64,000 nt of DNA from Thermoplasmata archaeon (lineage in GTDB: Archaea; Thermoplasmatota; Thermoplasmata; RBG-16-68-12): positions 1-64,000 of the forward strand of contig DASWDU010000044.1 in NCBI GenBank assembly GCA_036395115.1. Direction: 5' to 3'. The position numbers and the translations under genes are program-made. Shown one piece after another: positions 48,975 through 59,982 of the stretch. The notes beneath the pieces were generated by a model. The model did no database searches. It was not told the origin of the DNA and worked only from the letters and a program-made list of their open reading frames with translations. Position 1 is the stretch's first letter, and every line of letters begins with the position of its first letter.

Positions 48975-49960
48975 GTCTCCACTTGCGTGACGAATTCGAA
49001 CTCTTCGAAGCATCGCACAAGGTGGCCGAGTTCCGGAAGGATCTGTTGAAGGCGGTTTCGAATGGTACTCTCTCGTTCGATCAAGAAGTTGTCAAGGAAA
49101 TGAGGGACATTGTTGCGAGGTTTTCCTCAAACCTTGACGACGCAGAATTCCTAAAGATGCTGCTTGAGAGGATTGGCAATCGACAACGCGACGAAGGCTT
49201 CTGGAAGGATCTTTCGGCCGCGGATGAGGTTCTCGTTTCGGTCCAGATGCGAATGCGGTACCTTCTGGACAGGGAGGAGTCTTTGGCGCCGACGGCGGAA
49301 TACCGGGATCTGTACGAGAGAATCACAAGCCACCTTCTTAAGGCGGTTGGACCTCGGGAGGTGCGTAACAGACAAGCGAGACACAGAGCCATCTTTGCAA
49401 CACTTCAGATCAGTCCGGGTCTCTATGTCGCCGAACTCTACAGTCGGCTTGTAGGCAGCGGAACCGTTCGTACCACCTATACGACGCTATGGAGCGACGT
49501 CCGTTGGCTTCAGATTCAGGAACAGCTTATTACGGTAGGCGGCCCCCAAGGAAGTCCGCGCTACTGCTTCCCTCATCCAAAGACGATCCAGAATCGGCAT
49601 GATTTCTACAACCGATTCTACTGTGCTGAAGGGATTGTCGACAAGAATCTTACGGACAGCTTTTCGATGCGCAAGCACTGGTTTGACATTTATAGGGTGA
49701 ATTCGATGACGAAAGCCCTGATCCTCGTACTGGAACACGGCGCTGTAAAGGGAGAGATGGTTGGTAGTCGTGTGAAGTCTTTCGGCAGACTACACAAGTT
49801 CGAGTCGGCGCAGAGAAGCCACGGACTCGATCCGAAGCCCGGCGTCAAGCCGGAGGATGTGCTGAGAGCGATTAACGTGACGCAGGTTCGCAATGGCAAG
49901 GAAGTGACTATGTGGCACGAGCGGCCCTACGGCGGTCCGTTGTCGCTCTACTCATCCTGA
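48971..49960 (+). CDS. unknown protein with a winged-helix-like region
   Basis: 329 residues, coupled to the peptidase gene by an ATGA overlap. Residues 1-125 are helical and charged; residues 130-200 look like a winged helix (HRAIFATLQISPGLYVAELY, then SDVRWLQIQEQLITVGG as recognition helix and wing); the remainder, from RKHWFDIYRVNSM, is a mixed fold without known motif. It may sense a signal and be cut or modified by the peptidase partner (inference). The 3' end overlaps the convergent PCNA-like gene by 13 bases. Confidence 0.6.
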   Translation: MSLHLRDEFELFEASHKVAEFRKDLLKAVSNGTLSFDQEVVKEMRDIVARFSSNLDDAEFLKMLLERIGNRQRDEGFWKDLSAADEVLVSVQMRMRYLLDREESLAPTAEYRDLYERITSHLLKAVGPREVRNRQARHRAIFATLQISPGLYVAELYSRLVGSGTVRTTYTTLWSDVRWLQIQEQLITVGGPQGSPRYCFPHPKTIQNRHDFYNRFYCAEGIVDKNLTDSFSMRKHWFDIYRVNSMTKALILVLEHGAVKGEMVGSRVKSFGRLHKFESAQRSHGLDPKPGVKPEDVLRAINVTQVRNGKEVTMWHERPYGGPLSLYSS

Positions 49961-50703
49961 ATGACCGCACCGATGAAATACACCAAGACTGCGTTTGGGT
50001 AGAGATATCTGACCCGCGCTTGACCGTCGTCAATCAGTGAGAGTTCAAGGCTTGACGGCTTCTCGTGAAGAATGATCCTTGACGCATAGTCAATAGCCGC
50101 CCTGTCGAGAAGGGTTGTTGCCTCCGAGCTCGATGTCACGCTCGCGGGCTCAAATCGATCATCTTTCGAGTTCGGGTGAGCGAAGGATATTCCGTCCTTC
50201 CTGAACGAGACCTTGAGCGTCTCAGTCGTCCCCATCGCGTCATGAACCTCCCGAAGCAGTTCAACAGACTGAGGGGTGCAACTGGCAGCCTTACCAAAGT
50301 CAAGGTCGGTTTTGGGCGCGAGTAGCGCATCGGGGACGTGCCTCAAGATTCTGGTCAGACTGCCCCAACCCTCAACTGAAACCCGAACCCGGACTCGAGC
50401 ATTGTCGAACTGCAGTGCTGCGTCAACCGGTGCGTTCTCGTGTCGGCCAATCAACGCGAAATCCAATGCGCTTGAGACATGTGCAGAAAAAAGACAGATG
50501 TCTCCCGGCTCCTTGCACTCATAGCTGGAAAAAGCGGACGGTTTTATGTCGAGGTGACCGACCAGATTGCGGTTTTTCGACATTGCCTCGTAGCGGAGTC
50601 GGGTGGCGTTCCAATGGAACGAGATTGTCTCGAAGGCCACGGAAGGGAACGCGTTCGACCACAGCCTTAGAATCGCAGGATTGTTCGTCCTTAGTGTTAG
50701 CAA
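49948..50703 (-). CDS. divergent PCNA-like sliding clamp
   Basis: 251 residues, TTG start 28 bases after a CTTTTAGC TATA-like box. Length and order match PCNA: N-terminal strand-helix unit (AILRLWSNAFPSVAFETISFHW), then GHLDIKPSAFSSYECKEP (PCNA: hxhxxxaFxxYxC), a first helix around SAHVSSALDFALIG, an interdomain region, then a second domain with LLREVHDAMGTTETLKVSFRKDGISFAH (PCNA helix plus strand), ATTLLDRAAIDYASRIILHEKP (PCNA YsldYL) and the closing RVRYLYPNAVLVYFIGAVIQDE, resembling the PCNA end with its hYhhAPxhxDE. Sequence identity is clearly low. A chromosomal PCNA should exist elsewhere; this copy is embedded in the island. Alternatives: another clamp-like or 9-1-1-type fold. Confidence 0.62.
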   Translation of the reverse strand: MLTLRTNNPAILRLWSNAFPSVAFETISFHWNATRLRYEAMSKNRNLVGHLDIKPSAFSSYECKEPGDICLFSAHVSSALDFALIGRHENAPVDAALQFDNARVRVRVSVEGWGSLTRILRHVPDALLAPKTDLDFGKAASCTPQSVELLREVHDAMGTTETLKVSFRKDGISFAHPNSKDDRFEPASVTSSSEATTLLDRAAIDYASRIILHEKPSSLELSLIDDGQARVRYLYPNAVLVYFIGAVIQDE

Positions 50704-50838
50704 GGCGGAGGAACTCGGTTCTGGATGCTAAAAGCGTTGTGGTCCAAAGGCTGGCTAGGAGGTGGAGCATTACAGATCGGTCGAACTTCCTGGACATAAG
50801 GGGGCGGACAGGCAGGAGACGATTCACAGCAATCACTA

Positions 50839-50856
50839 CCGATGGCGCACCATCGG
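50839..50856 (-). terminator. hairpin after the GHKL ATPase gene
   Basis: CCGATGG, loop CGCA, CCATCGG: a perfect 7-bp stem about 22 bases past the ATPase stop on the minus strand, before the promoter of the PCNA-like gene. It may end or process the ATPase transcript. No strong T-run follows. Confidence 0.4.
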
Positions 50857-50877
50857 GTTCGGTGGTCCGGCGAAACG

Positions 50878-53169
50878 CTACAGAGCTTCGATAGGAAGAG
50901 AGAGAACGGACACCACCTGAGCCACGCGATCCAGTTCAGCTGAACTGTCGCTCGAGCCGTTTGGTTCCGAATCAGGCAAGGACTTTCCCTTGATTTCATG
51001 TACCTTTCGCAGCAACAAGTAGAATGCGACACCGGCCAAGTACCGATCTTCGACTGCACGCGAGACATCCGCTTCGAGCTTCCTTCTACGTAGTGCCTTT
51101 GCGAGATTGAGGTTGTCCAAGCTCACGTAAATACCCGAATCCTCCGGTTTCGCTTTCTCGATGACAACTTTGCCTACCGACCTCTCGTCCCACCCAAAAG
51201 CGGCCCACACCGCAGCGTTGTCGGCTTTCGATACGGGGAAAATTCTCGGTTCCGGAAGCTTCTCCTCCCCGGGTTCCTTCTTTCTCTCGAAGGGCGGTAC
51301 GATTACTATGCTTCTCTCAACGGCGAGGACTGAACCGTCTGGGAGGTCGAGTTCGAAACGCAGCTCCTCTTGGGTCCCGGTCTTTCCTGAGGGGGGACAA
51401 TGTGCAAAGTAGGAGATTTTCCCGTTGCGAAGACGGGAGCTACTTCTGCGAATAGTCAAGCCGGTCTTGTGAACTCCGCGGAAGTGTGAGTCCCAATCCG
51501 ACTCGAAATATGAATCGACGGCGTCGGTTTCTAGCCTTACCAGAGAGTTCCCACCCTTCTCAATCGGGATTGGGTCCTTCACGTTTGTGATTCGGAGATA
51601 AGTTGGAATTGGCTTAAGGTCAGGACGATCGAGTTCCTCCTCTCGAATTTCCTCAGGTCCTGCGTATTCTCTTTCCTGCTTCTTTTGCTTCTGACCCTCG
51701 AGGGGCTCTTTTCCCCGTGCCAGAATCAGTTCGGCAAGCTCCGGGTTTTGTCCAATGTATCGGCCAACAAGACTTCGGATTTTCGACGTGTCGCGCTCTG
51801 ATCTCGCGGACAGAATTTTGACCTTCCTATCTCGTTCAAAAGCCAGGACGTTTCGATCTTGGCGCAGGTGTTGAGCCACCTCCTCCATTAGGTCTTCCTT
51901 GAACTCACCTTCCTTCAGTCGATCACGCGTACTAGACAGGAGTTCCTTCTTCGACTGATTTGTTAGCCCGTCACAGTCGACCTGAACGATCAGGTAGTCA
52001 TGCGAATAGGTTAGATTCACCCGGTCGCGCAGGAAGGTCGTTTGTTCGACTCCATGACGTTGTCCGTTCAGAGTCACATAGATCGCGTGATTCCCCGAGA
52101 CATAACCTTTCTTGATATCGCGCCAATTCTCTAGCTCGTCCGCTGGCGACAGAGCCCAATAGTTGATTGTCACCGAACCTCTTGTCCCGAGCCTTAGTTC
52201 GTATGAGTCGGAACTCCAGATCTGCGCCTTGTCTCCCCGCCCTCCACTCCAGAGCCTGTTTGCCAGGCCTGCGAGCGCTCGATTTCGGTTCTCATATTGT
52301 ACACGAGACTCGTAGAGCCTCATTGGCAGGAGAGGATCGAAGAGTGATTGGCTGAGAAAGCTCCAGGCCGTACTTGCCGGCTGAAGCACGTCGCTGGTAC
52401 CCTTTGGCAGGTCGTATGACACCAGACGAATCAAGGTGCCATGTTCGAAGGCTATACGGATTTCGCGGGGGTCACAGGTAGGAACCCTCCTGGTTCCAGC
52501 TTCAACGCAATATTCCCAACGACCTCGTTTGAAAATGACGTCTGGTGTTGTCATGTCTCGATAGCGGACGATGCTCCAGCCGACCAGGTCGTCCCGGCCG
52601 GCTTTCAATAGGCTCGACTCTTTTCTTGATACAATGATCCCGTACGTGCAATGGGCGAACGAAGTCTGTCCACCCTGTCCGAACGCACCCATCAGATACA
52701 GCTTCGACACTTTGTAGTCCTCGTTCAACCCTAACAACGTCGCGGGGAAGTCAAGTGGGTGTTGACCGATGCCTTGGTCTTGTATTTCGATGGTTGGGCG
52801 CTTCGAACTCTCGCTATCCATGAACTTGACTTTGATGTGTGAAGCGAGTTCGCCGATTCTCCTCTGCTCGCACCACCTTAGCTTGCCGTCCTTCAACTCG
52901 TAAATCGCTTCGACCGCCTTCCGCGGGCTAGTGGTTCTCTTGAGCTCAGGTCGGAGTTCGACTTGGAGTTCAATCATAGCATCGATGGCGTTTGTGATTC
53001 TCTCGGTAATCCCATCGTAGGGATCCGCGCCCATGGAAATAATCCCATAATTGCCCGCGTTGCCGCCAAGGGGAACCCATTCGATTCTGTTACTGAGACG
53101 CTCGATTACCTTCTCCACATCTCCAGCTGTAGTCGCCATCAATAACTCGTTGAGTTCAGAATCACGCAT
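50878..53169 (-). CDS. GHKL (Hsp90/MutL/MORC-type) ATPase, large
   Basis: 763 residues. GHKL ATP-binding fold in the N-terminal 250 residues: N-box TERITNAIDAMIE (Glu56, Asn60, Asp63), G1 IQDQGIG at about 130-135 (DxGxG), and the lid/G2 motif GAFGQGGQTS at 161-170. Then a MutL-transducer-like region, a charged helical section with KQKKQEREYAGPEEIREEEL (about 500-525), a beta-rich domain (PTYLRITNVKDPIPIEKGGN) and a C-terminal helical domain ending DRVAQVVSVLSLP. There is no histidine-kinase H-box, so it is a mechanochemical or clamp-type GHKL. It is the second gene after a small partner (8-base overlap). MutL/MORC-type ATPases linked to restriction-modification genes have been described in bacteria. 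Confidence 0.8.
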   Translation of the reverse strand: MRDSELNELLMATTAGDVEKVIERLSNRIEWVPLGGNAGNYGIISMGADPYDGITERITNAIDAMIELQVELRPELKRTTSPRKAVEAIYELKDGKLRWCEQRRIGELASHIKVKFMDSESSKRPTIEIQDQGIGQHPLDFPATLLGLNEDYKVSKLYLMGAFGQGGQTSFAHCTYGIIVSRKESSLLKAGRDDLVGWSIVRYRDMTTPDVIFKRGRWEYCVEAGTRRVPTCDPREIRIAFEHGTLIRLVSYDLPKGTSDVLQPASTAWSFLSQSLFDPLLPMRLYESRVQYENRNRALAGLANRLWSGGRGDKAQIWSSDSYELRLGTRGSVTINYWALSPADELENWRDIKKGYVSGNHAIYVTLNGQRHGVEQTTFLRDRVNLTYSHDYLIVQVDCDGLTNQSKKELLSSTRDRLKEGEFKEDLMEEVAQHLRQDRNVLAFERDRKVKILSARSERDTSKIRSLVGRYIGQNPELAELILARGKEPLEGQKQKKQEREYAGPEEIREEELDRPDLKPIPTYLRITNVKDPIPIEKGGNSLVRLETDAVDSYFESDWDSHFRGVHKTGLTIRRSSSRLRNGKISYFAHCPPSGKTGTQEELRFELDLPDGSVLAVERSIVIVPPFERKKEPGEEKLPEPRIFPVSKADNAAVWAAFGWDERSVGKVVIEKAKPEDSGIYVSLDNLNLAKALRRRKLEADVSRAVEDRYLAGVAFYLLLRKVHEIKGKSLPDSEPNGSSDSSAELDRVAQVVSVLSLPIEAL

Positions 53170-53650
53170 CGGCTACCAGTGCTCCAGTCTCCTTTTGCGC
53201 AAGAAACTCCAGCGTGTTTGTGAGGAAGTATTCAACTGATTCCTCGGAGGGATCATTACCGTTCGCGATGAGGATCTGTCGAACAACCTTTCGTTGTTCC
53301 GATTTCGCGATTTCTCTCCGCTCGAGAGCCTTCACGAGGGGTTCGTAAATGTTCGCGACAAGACCTTTGGAATTCTGAATCTTCGCGACCACGTTCCATC
53401 CACGAGTCCTGACACGGTTCCTTTTGCGTCTGCGCCGGCGTGCTCTCCCAGGCCTTCTTTCCGTCGATGGGTGGACCCTTTCCGTCGCCGGGTGGGCCCC
53501 GGATTCATCATCCACGAGGACTGCGAAAACAACATGGTCCTTCTCCAGATAGGGATCTACCCCAGCTAGGTCAACTCCATACTGTGTCTTCAGGAGATCC
53601 CGAATCTCCTCGACTGGAATCTTGAACAACCGTTCTTCGCGGACCTTCAT
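53162..53650 (-). CDS. small partner of the GHKL ATPase
   Basis: 162 residues, ATG start 26 bases after an A/T-rich box, leading the ATPase operon with an 8-base overlap. N-terminal part ERLFKIPVEEIRDLLKTQYG and EKDHVVFAVLVDD; a very basic linker (RPGRARRRRRKRNRVRTRG), then a helical C-terminal part (VKALERREIAKSEQRKVVRQ). Basic linkers of this kind often bind nucleic acid. No family recognised. Confidence 0.6.
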   Translation of the reverse strand: MKVREERLFKIPVEEIRDLLKTQYGVDLAGVDPYLEKDHVVFAVLVDDESGAHPATERVHPSTERRPGRARRRRRKRNRVRTRGWNVVAKIQNSKGLVANIYEPLVKALERREIAKSEQRKVVRQILIANGNDPSEESVEYFLTNTLEFLAQKETGALVADA

Positions 53651-53664
53651 GGCGTATCCTCTAT

Positions 53665-53690
53665 ACGCTATAATGTTTATAGACTTTACG
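53665..53690. promoter_or_regulatory. A/T-rich bidirectional promoter region
   Basis: CTATAATGTTTATAGAC is A/T-rich and roughly palindromic. On the minus strand an ATAAACAT box is about 26 bases from the ATG at 53650; on the plus strand it would start transcripts near 53702 for the RHH-methyltransferase operon. The RHH product could bind this shared region (inference). Confidence 0.45.
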
Positions 53691-53777
53691 GCGGTTTGGG
53701 TCGCAGAGGCGGCCAGAAAGAGTATTGTATGTCTAATTCATATCCTACGCGATACGAAAACGATATCAGGCGATACT

Positions 53778-53978
53778 CTGGCAGCTCCAAAACGAGTCCT
53801 TGTGACTTTTACGCCAGAGCAATGGCGAATCATCGAGTCGCTGAAAGGGGAAATGGGAAGAGGAGACGCAGCGGCCGTGAGGACGATTGTGATTTCCTGG
53901 TTGATTGAGAAAGGGTTCGCCCTTCAGGCGATTAAGAACAGGGCACGTAAGAAGACCGGCCATCAGAGGACTTCATGA
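53778..53978 (+). CDS. ribbon-helix-helix DNA-binding protein, start uncertain
   Basis: 66 residues from a CTG at 53778; the frame extends further upstream, with an ATG at 53673 that lies inside the promoter box, and a GTG at 53802. Core: KRVLVTFTPEQW (ribbon strand and helix start), IIESLKGEMGRGDAAAVRTIVISWLIEKG (two helices), the CopG/MetJ-type arrangement. A small basic tail follows. Its stop overlaps the methyltransferase start as ATGA. Probably an autoregulator of the divergent operons. Confidence 0.55.
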   Translation: MAAPKRVLVTFTPEQWRIIESLKGEMGRGDAAAVRTIVISWLIEKGFALQAIKNRARKKTGHQRTS

Positions 53979-54868
53979 TTCGAGCGAAGCGATCGGTTGA
54001 CCCTCGCAACCGGTTGAATGATCTCACCGGCAAGGAGTGGCTACAATTGTCTCGTTCATGGTGGTTCCAGACGGGGCTTGGCAAGAACCATCCTGAGGCC
54101 TCAATCGAGGCAATGCATCCCGCTCCATTCTCGTTTCACGACATCCGCAAACTTGTGCAGTTTTTCACAAAGCCAGGCATGACTGTCCTCGATCCATTCT
54201 GCGGCGTGGCTTCAACATTGAAGGCCGCTGCGTTGTGCGAGAGGAATGCGATCGGGATCGAACTTTCACCTCGCTGGGTACGCTTGGGGAAACGCCGTCT
54301 TGAGGAGGAGTTACCAGAGCATGTTCGATCCAAAGTCCGAATCCGATTCATCCGCGGAGATTGCATAAGAAGGCTTCCGAAACTCGCGAGGAAGAGCGTG
54401 GACTTCATTGTAACCAGCCCCCCCTACTGGAACATTCTCAACAAGGATCCCGATCACAAAGTAATCTCCGAGAGATTAGATCGAGGTCTAGAGACTCGCT
54501 ACTCGAAGAGCCTGTCGGACCTGGGGAATGTCGATGATTATGACACATATTTGATGAAGTTGCGTCGAGCATTCCGGCAATGCCTTGGGGTTCTCAAGCG
54601 TGGACGATACATGGTGGTGATTGTCGGCGACTTCCGTCACAAAAGCGTGTTCTACCCATTCCACATCCACGCTGCGGTTGAAGGCGAGAAAGCCGGTTTC
54701 CGCCTTCGCGGGGTACTCCTGCTCATCCAAGGCGAAAAGCGGTTGTTTCCCTACGGATACCCCTTTGACTTTGTTCCGAATATCCATCATCAGTACGCAC
54801 TGATCTTCCAGCGACCAGTTCGCTCGGCACCAAATCCTTCTCGAGTCTTCGGCATGAACGGACTATAG
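53975..54868 (+). CDS. site-specific DNA methyltransferase (N4-cytosine / N6-adenine type)
   Basis: 297 residues, ATGA overlap with the RHH gene. Motif I DPFCGVAST at residues 73-81 (SAM site) precedes motif IV TSPPYW at 147-152 (target amine); the order and the SPPY motif fit N4C or N6A amino-methyltransferases. The N-terminal SWWFQTGLGKNHPEASIEAMHPAPF segment and C-terminal GVLLLIQGEKRLFPYGYP are also family-like. No target-recognition domain of usual size and no obvious restriction enzyme follows in the operon; the GHKL ATPase operon is divergent. Confidence 0.88.
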   Translation: MIRAKRSVDPRNRLNDLTGKEWLQLSRSWWFQTGLGKNHPEASIEAMHPAPFSFHDIRKLVQFFTKPGMTVLDPFCGVASTLKAAALCERNAIGIELSPRWVRLGKRRLEEELPEHVRSKVRIRFIRGDCIRRLPKLARKSVDFIVTSPPYWNILNKDPDHKVISERLDRGLETRYSKSLSDLGNVDDYDTYLMKLRRAFRQCLGVLKRGRYMVVIVGDFRHKSVFYPFHIHAAVEGEKAGFRLRGVLLLIQGEKRLFPYGYPFDFVPNIHHQYALIFQRPVRSAPNPSRVFGMNGL

Positions 54869-55007
54869 GGTTCCGTTCACTCTTACACTGGGGAGCGTGT
54901 CGACTTGGAGCGATTACTCACTGGCGAACGGTGGTGATTTGGCGCAATCGTCTTGGACCCCAATCTGGGGCGCAGCATCCTCAAAAATGATGCGGGTCGC
55001 ACGAGGG

Positions 55008-55754
55008 TTATGTGACGAGCCGAACTGCGTTACTGACTATGCGCGAAGCCTCTTTCTGCAAGATTTCGTACTTGGCGGCCGCATTAGGGTCTTCTCCGGC
55101 ATGTTTGAGAACGCCGACGAGGAACTCGAATTTCTTCAATGCAGCTCCGAGGACCGAGACATCAACTTCCCGGCCTCCGCGATCTGGATCCAGTAGCGCA
55201 ATGATGTCACTTCGGTCCTTGATGACTTTTGTTTTCTCCCACGCTGGATTTCGACTCTGGTTATTCTCAAGGCGGTACGATCGGTCGTAGGCAGCTTTCA
55301 GCTTGAACAGAACGAGCAACGCACGTGAAGGGACCAGCACGGGTATCCTACCGAGAGTGCGTTCTATGGTCTGTCCCTCCAAAATCGAGAAGTTCAGTCT
55401 GTGTTTTCGACCCATGAAATAGTCATCTGCCTCTCGACGGGCAAACTCGACCACGATTTCGTCGGGAGGGGTCCCCTTCCTCATCGTAAGCCATCGTCGT
55501 GACTCGGTTCTGTCTTCGGTGTATCCATGGTTTTTGGCAAGCCAGTAACCAAGCCGTTTTCGAGTCTCAGAATTAGTCACGATGTCGATGTCGACGCTAC
55601 CGTAATAGTCGTTGTACAGGTATACCGCCCAGCCGCCGATGAGAACGGCAGGCTGCAGGCCAGGTCCGCCGCTCTTATTGTATTCAGCGACTTTTGCGAG
55701 TATTATCTCGAGTTCTCGAAAGCTGAGTTCGACGAGAGTGTCACGGATGGGCAT
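55008..55754 (-). CDS. nucleotidyltransferase, AbiEii-like
   Basis: 248 residues. Polymerase-beta-like minimal nucleotidyltransferase: GGWAVYLYNDYYGSVDIDIV gives the Gly pair (40-41) and the metal Asps (55 and 57) after Ser53; a third acidic residue lies in EIVVEFARRE. The C-terminal KDRSDIIALLDPD is the helical segment seen in AbiEii toxins. AbiEii proteins are the toxin half of type IV toxin-antitoxin phage-defence pairs. The start overlaps the end of the AbiEi-like gene by 14 bases. Confidence 0.8.
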   Translation of the reverse strand: MPIRDTLVELSFRELEIILAKVAEYNKSGGPGLQPAVLIGGWAVYLYNDYYGSVDIDIVTNSETRKRLGYWLAKNHGYTEDRTESRRWLTMRKGTPPDEIVVEFARREADDYFMGRKHRLNFSILEGQTIERTLGRIPVLVPSRALLVLFKLKAAYDRSYRLENNQSRNPAWEKTKVIKDRSDIIALLDPDRGGREVDVSVLGAALKKFEFLVGVLKHAGEDPNAAAKYEILQKEASRIVSNAVRLVT

Positions 55755-56718
55755 AGGGCTTCACCATCTCGAGCGCAAGATCACGTGAGCTGAACCCCAG
55801 CCCTGCGATATCCAATAGAGTCAGTTCCCAACTGGCCATCAGGATACCTTGGATGGATTCCAGCCCCTCCAACGGCCGGTCTGGTTTGAAAACGTTAGCC
55901 GTGACTTTGCCTGCGCCCGAGCCTACCAGTCCCAGATCATCTTCAGCGAGATAGAGATCGATCGACTTGAACTGCCGAGAATATCCTGTGCGAAGGGTTG
56001 CAGAGGTTCGCGCTGTGAATGCAAAATGAGCCCCAGCCCGCTTGAGGATTCGCGTTAGTTGTCGCGCTCCTTCGAACGCATTGTCGTATTCTGACGCAAA
56101 GACGCCGACTCTGAGGCTTTCGAAAGGCCTCTCCCAGGCAACACCATTGAGAAGCTTCTCCACGTCAAGGAATCGCACCATTGAGCCTTGCCGACCTGCA
56201 ATGCCTTCTCTGACTAGCCTCTGGACCGTCGCATGCGCCCAGGCATACGACACCTTGGACTTCAGAGCGAGTTGGCGTATGCTCGTGGTTCGAAGCTCGA
56301 GAAGTCGGCAGACTACCCGCCAGGCCTTCGGACCAGTCAACCGTGAAGCCTCACGTGACCCGGGACCCTGTGAAGGCTGGATCTCCCTGGACAGGAGCTG
56401 TGGCGGGGGCTCAAGTGCATCAGCTCCGATCCTGCGCAGAAGGCCGTCGACACTCGGGGGCACCTCCCGTGACACAAGGATTGGCCGGATCTTCAGATTT
56501 GGATAACGAGCCTCGTACAAATCGCGATACAAGGCGAGTTGGGCAACATCGCTCTGTGTAGCGCGCCTGGCTTTCACTTCGATTACGTAGAGAGTCCGAC
56601 CGTCTCTTGCGGTAAAATCTGGTCGAATTGAGTCGACTGCAGGCTCGCGTTTGAGTGATTTCTCAGGGAGATGGAGTCGATCGATGATATAGAACTCGAG
56701 CGGTTCTGGGGCCGGCAT
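55741..56718 (-). CDS. AbiEi-like regulator with an N-terminal PD-(D/E)XK nuclease-like domain
   Basis: 325 residues from the ATG at 56718, 26 bases after a TATA box. Residues 1-105 look like a PD-(D/E)XK nuclease: IRPDFTA (Asp34) and YVIEVKARR (Glu47, Lys49) followed by QLALYRDLYEARYP, as in RecB/Cas4-like folds. Residues about 130-195 are a winged helix (TTSIRQLALKSKVSYAWAHA, VQRLVREGIAG). The C-terminal part (about 200-325) resembles the AbiEi antitoxin domain. Usual AbiEi proteins have only the winged helix and C-terminal domain. Overlap with the NTase gene fits an AbiE-type pair. Confidence 0.68.
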   Translation of the reverse strand: MPAPEPLEFYIIDRLHLPEKSLKREPAVDSIRPDFTARDGRTLYVIEVKARRATQSDVAQLALYRDLYEARYPNLKIRPILVSREVPPSVDGLLRRIGADALEPPPQLLSREIQPSQGPGSREASRLTGPKAWRVVCRLLELRTTSIRQLALKSKVSYAWAHATVQRLVREGIAGRQGSMVRFLDVEKLLNGVAWERPFESLRVGVFASEYDNAFEGARQLTRILKRAGAHFAFTARTSATLRTGYSRQFKSIDLYLAEDDLGLVGSGAGKVTANVFKPDRPLEGLESIQGILMASWELTLLDIAGLGFSSRDLALEMVKPYAHP

Positions 56719-56740
56719 GCTATATCGTACTGCAACGATA

Positions 56741-56750
56741 CTATATAAGT
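56741..56750 (-). promoter_or_regulatory. TATA box of the AbiE-like operon
   Basis: ACTTATATAG on the minus strand, centred 26 bases before the ATG at 56718. Confidence 0.55.
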
Positions 56751-56753
56751 ATA

Positions 56754-56775
56754 TCACTGATATATGTCACTGATA
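56754..56775. repeat. direct repeat beside the AbiE-like promoter
   Basis: TCACTGATA occurs at 56754-56762 and 56767-56775, 13 bases apart, directly upstream of the TATA box. ATACT/AGTAT flanks the box itself. This suits an operator for the winged-helix protein; AbiEi antitoxins are known to repress their own promoters through repeats. Confidence 0.45.
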
Positions 56776-56903
56776 ATCTCGCGCGCCATCGCCATAATAC
56801 GATATGGCTGAAATCTCAGCATTCGATAGCAACACTATGACGCGATTGTCTTCCCCGCAGGTTCCTCCATTTCAGTTGTTCGCATGAAGAGCATCGCGCG
56901 AAT

Positions 56904-57623
56904 TCAGAGCTCCGAGGAAAGGACTGTTTCTGCTCCATTTACGAACCTCTCGATGAAGTCAGCACAGGACTCTGCATCCGCCCTGGCGATATCTCGTCGT
57001 CTTCCACCACCCCTTCGCCTGCCTATGCGGTCGTGTTCGTGGGCGATCTGGTTTCGTCTTTCGGCCCATCTGGACAAGCGGGATCTGATGGTGTCCTCCT
57101 CGAGGTCTATTTCCTCTCCAACTTTCGAGAAGAAATCCTCAACGCCGAGAAGCTTGACTGCGTCGAGGACCTTGTCAGGTTTCATGTAGGACAGCGTATA
57201 CAGCCGATCCTTCAGGACAGCTTTGATTTTCTCGTGTGGCCTGTTGTAGTATCGCAGCATCCTCTCCACCTCGAGGACCGGCATGGCCATGTTGCCTAGA
57301 GGCCCCGGCATTTTCTCGATGTCCGCATTCAAAATCGGAACGATGGCGTCCTCAATCTTCTGGTGGAAATAGGCATCAAGAGCGCTCAACGAGAAGACAA
57401 CAGCAGACCGGAGAAGCTCCTTCCTGTCCTCGGTAAGAAGGCCGGCGGTGCGAGCCGTTTTGTCATAGATTGCAATCAAGTTGCGTGCCGACTTGATGTT
57501 CTCCCCGAAATCCTCGAAAGCGGTCAAGCTTGCTTGCCAGCCACGAACCCCTTCGGTAGGGCCATAATTCTTTCGGCCTATGCCTCTAGAGTGGCGGCAT
57601 GATGCGATTGTCTCGCCTTCCAA
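56904..57623 (-). CDS. HEPN-domain RNase-like protein
   Basis: 239 residues, TTG start (other starts possible). An all-helical protein with VVFSLSALDAYFHQKIEDAI early (the RiboL-PSP/MAE_28990-type HEPN helix) and the RNase motif RNQIAH (Arg190, His195, an Rx4H motif) in WAERRNQIAHEHDRI, followed by a basic RRRGGGRRR loop and a short helix. HEPN proteins are metal-independent RNases frequent in toxin and abortive-infection systems. No MNT partner is adjacent, although the AbiEii-like NTase lies two genes away. Confidence 0.72.
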   Translation of the reverse strand: MEGETIASCRHSRGIGRKNYGPTEGVRGWQASLTAFEDFGENIKSARNLIAIYDKTARTAGLLTEDRKELLRSAVVFSLSALDAYFHQKIEDAIVPILNADIEKMPGPLGNMAMPVLEVERMLRYYNRPHEKIKAVLKDRLYTLSYMKPDKVLDAVKLLGVEDFFSKVGEEIDLEEDTIRSRLSRWAERRNQIAHEHDRIGRRRGGGRRRDIARADAESCADFIERFVNGAETVLSSEL

Positions 57624-57690
57624 GTTCTAGATCGCCTGCTGGCCTTCTCGGGGGAAAAGGTCTAAGCTACCGACGAAGAGTCACGAATGA

Positions 57691-58596
57691 ATGCGGGATC
57701 CCAGGGACGAGTTGCGGACCCTAGTCGATCGGGGCAAATTCCTGATTCAGGAGGCGGAGGGTGTCAAACAGGCTAGTAGGTCTTTGGATCCGAACGTCCA
57801 ATTGGGAGTTGGAGTGTTCGATCTCGCGGTTGGGCTAAGAGGACGAAAGAGGCTAGCCGCGGCTCTGGGAAAGACGTGGCTTCGAGGAAACCTCGTTCAG
57901 CGCTACTCGTCTCTGACAAAGAACTTCGATCAATGGTACACCGAGACGGTTGCCACGCTGCGGAGAATCTCGGTCGCTAGGAAGAACCTGGCTCACGGCG
58001 GCAACAGCTCCGCTCTCGTGAAACGCCTCGCCACGGCCAAGACCTACCGGAGGCTCGACACCCAGATTGCGAAGGCCGTCGGAACCTTGGAGGCCATCGC
58101 ATCGGAAGACTTGGTCTACAATGACGAGATCGACGAACTCCGTTTCCAACGGAAGAAGGAGGCATTCGAGGAGCTTCGTAGGGGCAGAGAGGAGCAACTC
58201 CTGGACCTGAGGAAAGTAGCCCCGGAACTCGGTTCTGTCAAACTCGAAAACCGTCAAGAACTTCGGACTCAGCTGGCCGGTCATCCCGAGGTCGCTCGGA
58301 TGATTGAGGGAGCGTTGGACACCCTTTCGACGACCGGAGCCGACGCGAACAGGCAAGCCCTTGCCTCTTGCCGTTCAGCGATCGAACTTCTCCTAATCGA
58401 GATGACCGGAGAAACTGAGTGGCGGACAGGGCTTAATGAGCTCGCCGCGGGGACCCGCAAGAAGTTGGTGGCCGGCACGTATGCCTTTCTTTCCGGGTAT
58501 GGGTCGCACCCCGGAGGCGTTACAACGAAGCGGGATGCAGAGTATGGGATACGAATGACTATCGCGTCGTGCTTGTGGCTCCTGGGTCGCACTTAG
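57691..58596 (+). CDS. Abi-like helical protein of unknown function
   Basis: 301 residues, divergent from the HEPN gene. Residues 1-190 are helical and basic with RKNLAHGGNSS at about 92-103. The C-terminal 100 residues (SCRSAIELLLIEMTG, FLSGYGSHPGGVTTKRDAEYGIRM, TIASCLWLLGR) resemble the C-terminal HEPN-like helical bundle of abortive-infection-type proteins. The AH and SHPG motifs could be remnants or variants of an RNase site. No named family assigned. Confidence 0.55.
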   Translation: MRDPRDELRTLVDRGKFLIQEAEGVKQASRSLDPNVQLGVGVFDLAVGLRGRKRLAAALGKTWLRGNLVQRYSSLTKNFDQWYTETVATLRRISVARKNLAHGGNSSALVKRLATAKTYRRLDTQIAKAVGTLEAIASEDLVYNDEIDELRFQRKKEAFEELRRGREEQLLDLRKVAPELGSVKLENRQELRTQLAGHPEVARMIEGALDTLSTTGADANRQALASCRSAIELLLIEMTGETEWRTGLNELAAGTRKKLVAGTYAFLSGYGSHPGGVTTKRDAEYGIRMTIASCLWLLGRT

Positions 58597-58695
58597 GAAT
58601 TCCGGTTGGCATTGTCTCGAAAATTGTAGCGAGAGCCCATCAGGGTACGAAGTGCGTTCCCTCGATGCAAGGTTCCATAAGTAGTCGTCCGTCGT

Positions 58696-59982
58696 ATGCT
58701 CAGGACTGTGGGTGTAAGAAAGAGCAAAAATTGGCTCGATTTGCTCCATGAGGACCCCAAGCTTGCCGACGACAGAGGTCGCTTTGAAGCTGCGTCCGAC
58801 CTAGTCGAAGGTGTCTTCGGCGCTGAATGGTTGTCAAGCGAACTTTCGAAGCCCCCGCGGCGCAGGCACGAGCTAGCGAACTGGTGGAAGGTTGGTGGAA
58901 TCGTGAGTGCGTGGAGTATTCGAGGGCTCGCTGAGGATATCGGGGCTGTGCAAAATGCCAGACAATTTGACCAGATTTTGGCAAGACTTCGTAGCCCAAT
59001 CGAGTTCGGATCGGCACGTTACGAGGTGCACTGCGCGGCCCTCGTGGCGCGGGCAGGCGAGGTCAACCTCGAATTCGCCCCTGATGTTCCGCCCGGCAAA
59101 GCCGATTTCGCATTCGACGCAGGGGGGCAGCGAATCTTCAATGAATGTAAGAAACTGGGAATCTCGAACGCGGAGAAGGCCTTTCTCAACTTGTTTGTCC
59201 GTTTGCGAGATCGAATCTACCGAATGGTCTCCGATTCCGACTCCGGGTTCCTCGAAGTCCGCATTCGTTCCCGGCTTCTGCCACGTGAAACACCAATCCT
59301 TCCAACGATCAATACAGTGGAGCGCCTCATCAAGGGCTATGACGGACGATTCGCAAGAGTCGTTTCGGGGCCCGTAGATGCTAGCATTTTCCCCTTGAGG
59401 GCCCGGATACGACCACAGGATTCGGAACCTGATGTCGGGCCAGGTGGATCCATCTTCTCTGCACCGCCGCCACGGATTGCTTTTCGTCCCAGGCTCCGGG
59501 GAGTTGAATTGTGGACCAAATTTGACCTTACCGCGGGCGTCTACGTTGAGTCGCCGTGGGTCCTATATGTGGAGTGCGCGAGAGACCCGCGAGAGACCAC
59601 ACGTATTGAGAGCATCCTGAAAAGGGTTGCGAAACAACTCCCCCGGGACACGCCGAACCTCCTCTGGCTAGGTACCACACAGTACCAAGATCACGAGTCA
59701 ATCGCCAACGAATTGAGGAAACGATTCGGACGAGGCCTTAACAGGCGTCTTAGCGGTGTGATGCTCACACTTCCCACAGTGTACCGCAGTGCTGACATTC
59801 TCTCCTGGCTCGATTGGCTCCAGTTTGTCGAGCACCCTAACCCATGGATCAGACTTCCCGAGGTACCCTTTTCAGCTATGGGTCTCGTTACACAGATGAA
59901 GTCCCAGGGTGACAGGGTTCCATTCCCTGCCAATCGGTACTCCCTCCGCTTCCTGTACTGGAAACGAGTCGCCGCATACTGA
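58696..59982 (+). CDS. PD-(D/E)XK nuclease-like protein
   Basis: 428 residues. A nuclease-like core at residues 105-155: RYEVHCAALVARAGEVNLEF, then PPGKADFAFDAGGQRIFNECKKLG, with Asp137, Glu150 and Lys152 in the D...ExK arrangement. The preceding 100 residues are helical; a large C-terminal region (about 160-428) has beta-strand patterns without recognised family (LWTKFDLTAGVYVESPWVLYVECARD). It is the last gene of the low-GC island. Catalytic competence is plausible, not shown. Confidence 0.58.
   Translation: MLRTVGVRKSKNWLDLLHEDPKLADDRGRFEAASDLVEGVFGAEWLSSELSKPPRRRHELANWWKVGGIVSAWSIRGLAEDIGAVQNARQFDQILARLRSPIEFGSARYEVHCAALVARAGEVNLEFAPDVPPGKADFAFDAGGQRIFNECKKLGISNAEKAFLNLFVRLRDRIYRMVSDSDSGFLEVRIRSRLLPRETPILPTINTVERLIKGYDGRFARVVSGPVDASIFPLRARIRPQDSEPDVGPGGSIFSAPPPRIAFRPRLRGVELWTKFDLTAGVYVESPWVLYVECARDPRETTRIESILKRVAKQLPRDTPNLLWLGTTQYQDHESIANELRKRFGRGLNRRLSGVMLTLPTVYRSADILSWLDWLQFVEHPNPWIRLPEVPFSAMGLVTQMKSQGDRVPFPANRYSLRFLYWKRVAAY

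Follow-up and report, generated by a model that had tools for sequence, protein, structure and literature searches.

Two kinds of AbiE pair are close to the locus described here. The classical kind (COG5340-COG2253) includes AbiEi-AbiEii of S. agalactiae, MenAT3, and MenAT4. The second kind, COG4861-COG4849, has antitoxins of the AbiEi_2 type (PF09952 is COG4861; PMC7251935) and includes MenAT2 (Rv0837c-Rv0836c), an assignment taken from the literature rather than from an alignment of ours (PMC7319586, PMC3968373). COG5340 and COG4861 have been published as sharing no sequence identity (PMC3985639), and the MenT toxins are phosphorylated at a Ser/Thr site (PMC11375011). A PDB search turned up no sequence relative of the COG4861 antitoxin, and in the literature we found no description of a nuclease-like domain in these antitoxins, of which an earlier mention in censuses of the REase fold is possible.

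In the window, that is, the whole stretch of 64,000 nucleotides of Thermoplasmata archaeon DNA that was analysed, a regulator gene lies directly upstream of an NTase gene, and the ORF listing holds both where the earlier note had placed them (Table 1). In our judgment the two are probably a toxin-antitoxin operon, an archaeal form of AbiE that belongs with the COG4861-COG4849 (AbiEi_2-AbiEii) pairs, because of the domain make-up and AbiEi_2 kinship of the regulator, NTase motifs that are near-invariant, and an operator conserved around the promoter. The 14-bp overlap of the genes likely couples the translation of regulator and NTase. The regulator start given by the ORF finder is an upstream GTG (56757); the numbering of the residues D34, E47, and K49 fits the ATG at 56718, not this GTG. 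A TATA-like TTATATAG about 27 nt ahead of the ATG suggests that a leaderless archaeal message begins there.

Table 1. Features of the AbiE-type locus, in positions of the window
Feature	Position	Strand	Remarks
NTase CDS, presumed toxin	55008..55754	-	248 aa, AbiEii/COG4849-like
Regulator/antitoxin CDS	55741..56718	-	325 aa, AbiEi_2 (COG4861)-like; ATG 56718
Gene overlap	55741..55754	-	14 bp, from coordinates
C-terminal AbiEi_2-like domain, residues 195-325	55744..56136	-	hhalign Prob 98.3, E 2.5e-14
Winged helix, residues 125-186	56161..56346	-	S157-Y158-x-W160 conserved (alignment of 22 relatives)
NucS-like PD-(D/E)XK domain, residues 1-107	56398..56718	-	D34, E47, K49; Pfam, Foldseek, hhalign
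Candidate operator site B	56723..56740	-	TATCG-N8-CGATA (TATC-N10-GATA)
TATA box	56741..56748	-	TTATATAG; position conserved as A/T-rich in the site-A alignment of promoters
Candidate operator site A2	56752..56762	-	TATCAGTGATA
Candidate operator site A1	56765..56775	-	TATCAGTGACA, one base off palindrome

Neither window protein matches at the curated Pfam cut-offs of AbiEi_2 and AbiEii, a library criterion and not a biological one. When profiles were compared by hhalign, however, the regulator aligned with 12 AbiEi_2 proteins (Prob 99.7, E 8e-27), colinearly over the full length, the nuclease-like part included. The three parts also matched AbiEi_2 separately (N-terminus, E 8e-8; winged helix, E 1.4e-9; C-terminus, E 2.5e-14), while reversed and column-shuffled controls gave no match (E 0.5-0.6 for the C-terminus). 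The NTase likewise matched the NTases of AbiEi_2 pairs (Prob 96.9, E 2e-10), not significantly the classical AbiEii profile (Prob 0.4). The nearest linking member, L022 of the same phylum, is matched by the regulator profile over its full length (E 1e-28) and itself passes Pfam AbiEi_2 (5e-9, 37 bits); most of its bacterial-plasmid relatives carry the annotation "type IV toxin-antitoxin system AbiEi family antitoxin", and they usually have an AbiEii NTase downstream. The AbiE-type pair and the winged helix of the earlier note are borne out. Its AbiEi-like C-terminus holds for the AbiEi_2/COG4861 type, to which this domain is homologous, but not for the structurally solved COG5340 type: hhalign with COG5340-type AbiEi gave Prob 0.8, and no AbiEi structure was among the top 50 Foldseek hits of the regulator model. 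Kinship to classical AbiEi was set aside, as hhalign with classical archaeal AbiEi found a generic winged helix only, in agreement with the published lack of COG5340/COG4861 identity (PMC3985639). Judged by sequence, the pair is an archaeal COG4861-COG4849 branch of AbiE that is not recognised as AbiE by Pfam, NCBIfam, or PADLOC.

The regulator (AlphaFold2 model, mean pLDDT 89) is composed of an N-terminal NucS-like PD-(D/E)XK domain, a winged helix, and a C-terminal domain that is presumed to be the neutralising one. A nuclease-like N-terminus with D34, E47, and K49 had been proposed before and was confirmed: Pfam NucS_C matches residues 21-107 above its cut-off of 24 (25.3 bits, E 1.6e-5) with all three residues inside the match, and EndoMS and NucS rank first when the model is searched against the PDB by Foldseek (E 2.7e-5), so that both the core fold and the D...E-x-K residues are present. 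The NCBIfam NucS model matches residues 25-98 (2e-7), far under its own cut-off, and phmmer aligns residues 22-106 to EndoMS (E 0.07). In the latter alignment the E and K positions are matched and D34 stands opposite an alanine of the EndoMS chain, which we take to be a mutant of the catalytic Asp made for crystallisation. The winged helix of relatives matches HTH domains of the HVO_A0114, TrmB, and MarR types. The idea that the fusion is peculiar to this locus was dropped, since AbiEi_2 antitoxins of bacteria and of other archaea are built from these three parts as well; the arrangement is old and common to the bacterial relatives.

Of 390 genomes of the phylum, 23 had the regulator and 33 the NTase. 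The NTase profile, run against 85,000 species genomes, detected 80 loci. Going by their titles, all of these are archaeal: they come from Thermoplasmata, methanogens, and ANME and, at a greater distance, from Bathyarchaeota and Asgard lineages. The NTase adjoins the regulator in 71 of the 72 long-form loci with enough downstream sequence; in Bathyarchaeota, Freyarchaeota, and others it adjoins short regulators of 200-260 aa that have no nuclease-like domain. Carriage by viruses or plasmids was considered and rejected, as no relatives of the window proteins were found in viral contigs and none of the regulator in plasmids.

By automatic count, 53 of 74 long-form regulators, that of the window included, retain the whole D/E/K triad and 21 do not; three of these 21 have D/Q/K. 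D34 is locally misaligned in one of the others (L006), and after one hand correction D is present in about 73 of the 74. The five bacterial AbiEi_2 proteins aligned also have the full triad. On a quick tree of the other two regulator parts, which has partial support, the state of the active site changes 16 times, a rough count because many branches are long. In 17 of the loci with an incomplete triad the scored NTase residues are intact as far as they can be read (the reading frame of L137 does not include the first two); in a few others the NTase is broken too, so that decay of the whole module lies behind some of the losses. As the triad is complete in only this share of the long forms, and the domain is absent from the short ones, catalysis by the N-terminus is, from the pattern of residues, optional.

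The N-terminus may well be a non-cutting domain for DNA binding or sensing, which would add DNA affinity or detect foreign or damaged ends and thereby release the toxin. Its E or K has been lost repeatedly with D34 kept, and it adjoins a DNA-binding winged helix, although the full triad in most members suggests selection for catalysis there. The earlier note had envisaged a two-layer defence unit. We regard as unlikely such a unit, in which the N-terminus would be an active nuclease that, on triggering, cuts invading or own DNA besides the action of the NTase. The prevalence of the triad, in the window and in the bacterial proteins as well, and a nearest fold that is an active mismatch endonuclease (EndoMS/NucS) speak for it, yet the NTase motifs are intact in most loci affected by the 16 active-site changes, and short forms that still adjoin the NTase lack the whole domain. 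With about a quarter of relatives short of the full triad, mostly beside an intact NTase, the proposal went unsupported. Distinctly doubtful is the broader idea that COG4861 antitoxins, archaeal and bacterial, are switchable nucleases that repress and neutralise the NTase at rest and, when released, cut DNA with the N-terminal domain, with catalysis gained and lost in an arms race; if true, it would make this whole AbiE branch a two-effector defence. In the reading that we prefer, the NucS-like N-terminus would most likely be an accessory, DNA-engaging domain, with catalytic residues kept in most members and dispensable elsewhere. The scattered loss of the nuclease site provides natural mutants for asking what the domain does.

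The direct repeats noticed earlier at the promoter, TCACTGATA at 56754 and 56767 of the plus strand, proved to be part of a conserved site, TATCA[C/G]TGATA. The 11-base site of the window promoter has no other copy in the 2.4-Mb genome, so the repeats are not there by chance. An exact TATCA[C/G]TGATA is present in 70 of 76 regulator upstream regions, promoters that are not independent because some loci are close relatives, but that span regulators 23-40% identical to that of the window, many of them at roughly a quarter to a third. Copies number 121 in 19.6 kb of upstream sequence versus 3 in 434 kb of flanks, and none in shuffles. At least two copies occur in 51 promoters, 42-43 bp apart in 41 of them and 13 bp apart in the window. 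When the promoters are aligned on the nearest copy, they read TATCASTGATA-NN-TTTATATA-NN-TATCAC..TGATA, and 59 of 70 relatives have the second palindrome (site B) at a constant spacing, where shuffles would give 0.4; in the window, sites A and B bracket the TATA box. In ten other genomes, this layout was found only at the AbiE-type module among the places examined. A wider regulon was rejected, since the other exact 11-mers in these genomes, examined at all but four places, were single and without site B. The A/B layout predicts autorepression of the operon. A code of TATCASTGATA, TATA box, and TATC-N10-GATA that is common to distant archaea gives an exact prediction of the operator, so that autorepression can be tested directly. 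Among short-form and AbiEi_2-type promoters read by eye (L112, L116, L120-L123, L047, L048, L050, L053, L134, L022, L171), several carry palindromes of other kinds close to the start, for instance TTTCGGTAAAAACCGAAA and GTTTCACCGAACGGTGAAAC, and each branch may therefore have its own half-site.

The NTase contains GGW...S-x-D-I-D, a third acidic position, and a C-terminal K.KA..DR...K..KD..D pattern, that is, motifs I-IV (GG, DxD, third acid, K and D residues), in keeping with the AbiEii pattern assigned to it before. These residues are near-invariant in 67 toxins, with the third acidic position placed from alignment only. For its AlphaFold2 model (pLDDT 94), the top Foldseek match was MenT1 (E 1e-5), with TM-scores of only 0.4-0.6, more narrowly about 0.45-0.57; ANT(2'')-Ia and TM1012 were also among the fold matches. 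MenT1 was the only PDB sequence match of the family profile as well (E 0.77, not significant alone), and weak Pfam matches to Aminoglyc_resit were seen. An autoregulated pair without toxin action, whose NTase modifies a small molecule in the manner of ANT(2'') or modifies the regulator, would suit the ANT(2'')-Ia, TM1012, and Aminoglyc_resit matches but is very unlikely given the standing of MenT1 in both searches and the kinship to annotated AbiE pairs. MenT1 (Rv0078A) and this NTase both have a Ser/Thr ahead of DxD, here S53, which from our own comparison of positions we take to be the counterpart of the MenT phosphorylation site. Silencing of the NTase by phosphorylation, as in MenT, is therefore possible.

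We propose that the regulator contacts sites A and B, on either side of the TATA box, with its winged helix and, once bound, keeps out TBP/TFB and RNA polymerase. The operon would in this way repress itself, and the C-terminal domain of the regulator would neutralise the NTase. Were the regulator lost or occupied, for example during infection, the NTase would be free to extend an acceptor by nucleotides, probably the 3' ends of tRNA as with the MenT toxins, and growth would halt. Autorepression and antitoxin function are proposed by analogy with work on AbiE and MenAT (PMC3985639, PMC10435456, PMC11375011). Against the toxin reading, MenT2, the NTase of a COG4861 pair, had no detectable effect in M. 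smegmatis (PMC10435456).

The surroundings of the pair (49948-59982) resemble a defence island. Nearby are a large protein without significant Pfam match that looks GHKL ATPase-like by eye (50878-53169), genes for an N6/N4 DNA methylase (53975-54868) and, by Pfam, a RiboL-PSP-HEPN protein (56904-57623), and two further ORFs (57691-59982). A tRNA-Asn called by ARAGORN at 57968-58041 is inside the ORF 57691-58596, has no Rfam match at gathering score, and is probably false. Elsewhere in the genome, Pfam finds two classical AbiEii NTases (C5:24072-24713 and C5:15024-15635), at least the first of which is adjoined by a COG5340-like AbiEi.

The locus adds to AbiE an archaeal branch that was missed by the family libraries searched, and COG4861 antitoxins are shown to carry a nuclease-like domain. 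With AbiEi_2/COG4861-COG4849 pairs it has in common the gene order, the adjacent or overlapping genes, the three-part regulator (REase-like N-terminus, wHTH, AbiEi_2 C-terminus), and the GG...DxD and K..KD..D motifs of the NTase. It differs from them in being archaeal and diverged past the Pfam models, in an NTase of about 248 aa versus 280-290 aa, and in TATCASTGATA, which did not show up in the AbiEi_2 promoters that were inspected. MenA1, the antitoxin of MenT1, is a short, unrelated protein. The NucS/EndoMS endonuclease shares only its C-terminal PD-(D/E)XK domain with the regulator, and NucS itself has no wHTH, AbiEi part, or NTase neighbour. Classical AbiE systems have the same antitoxin-then-NTase operon, wHTH regulator, and NTase-fold toxin, but their AbiEi is without the N-terminal nuclease-like domain that the regulator described here carries.
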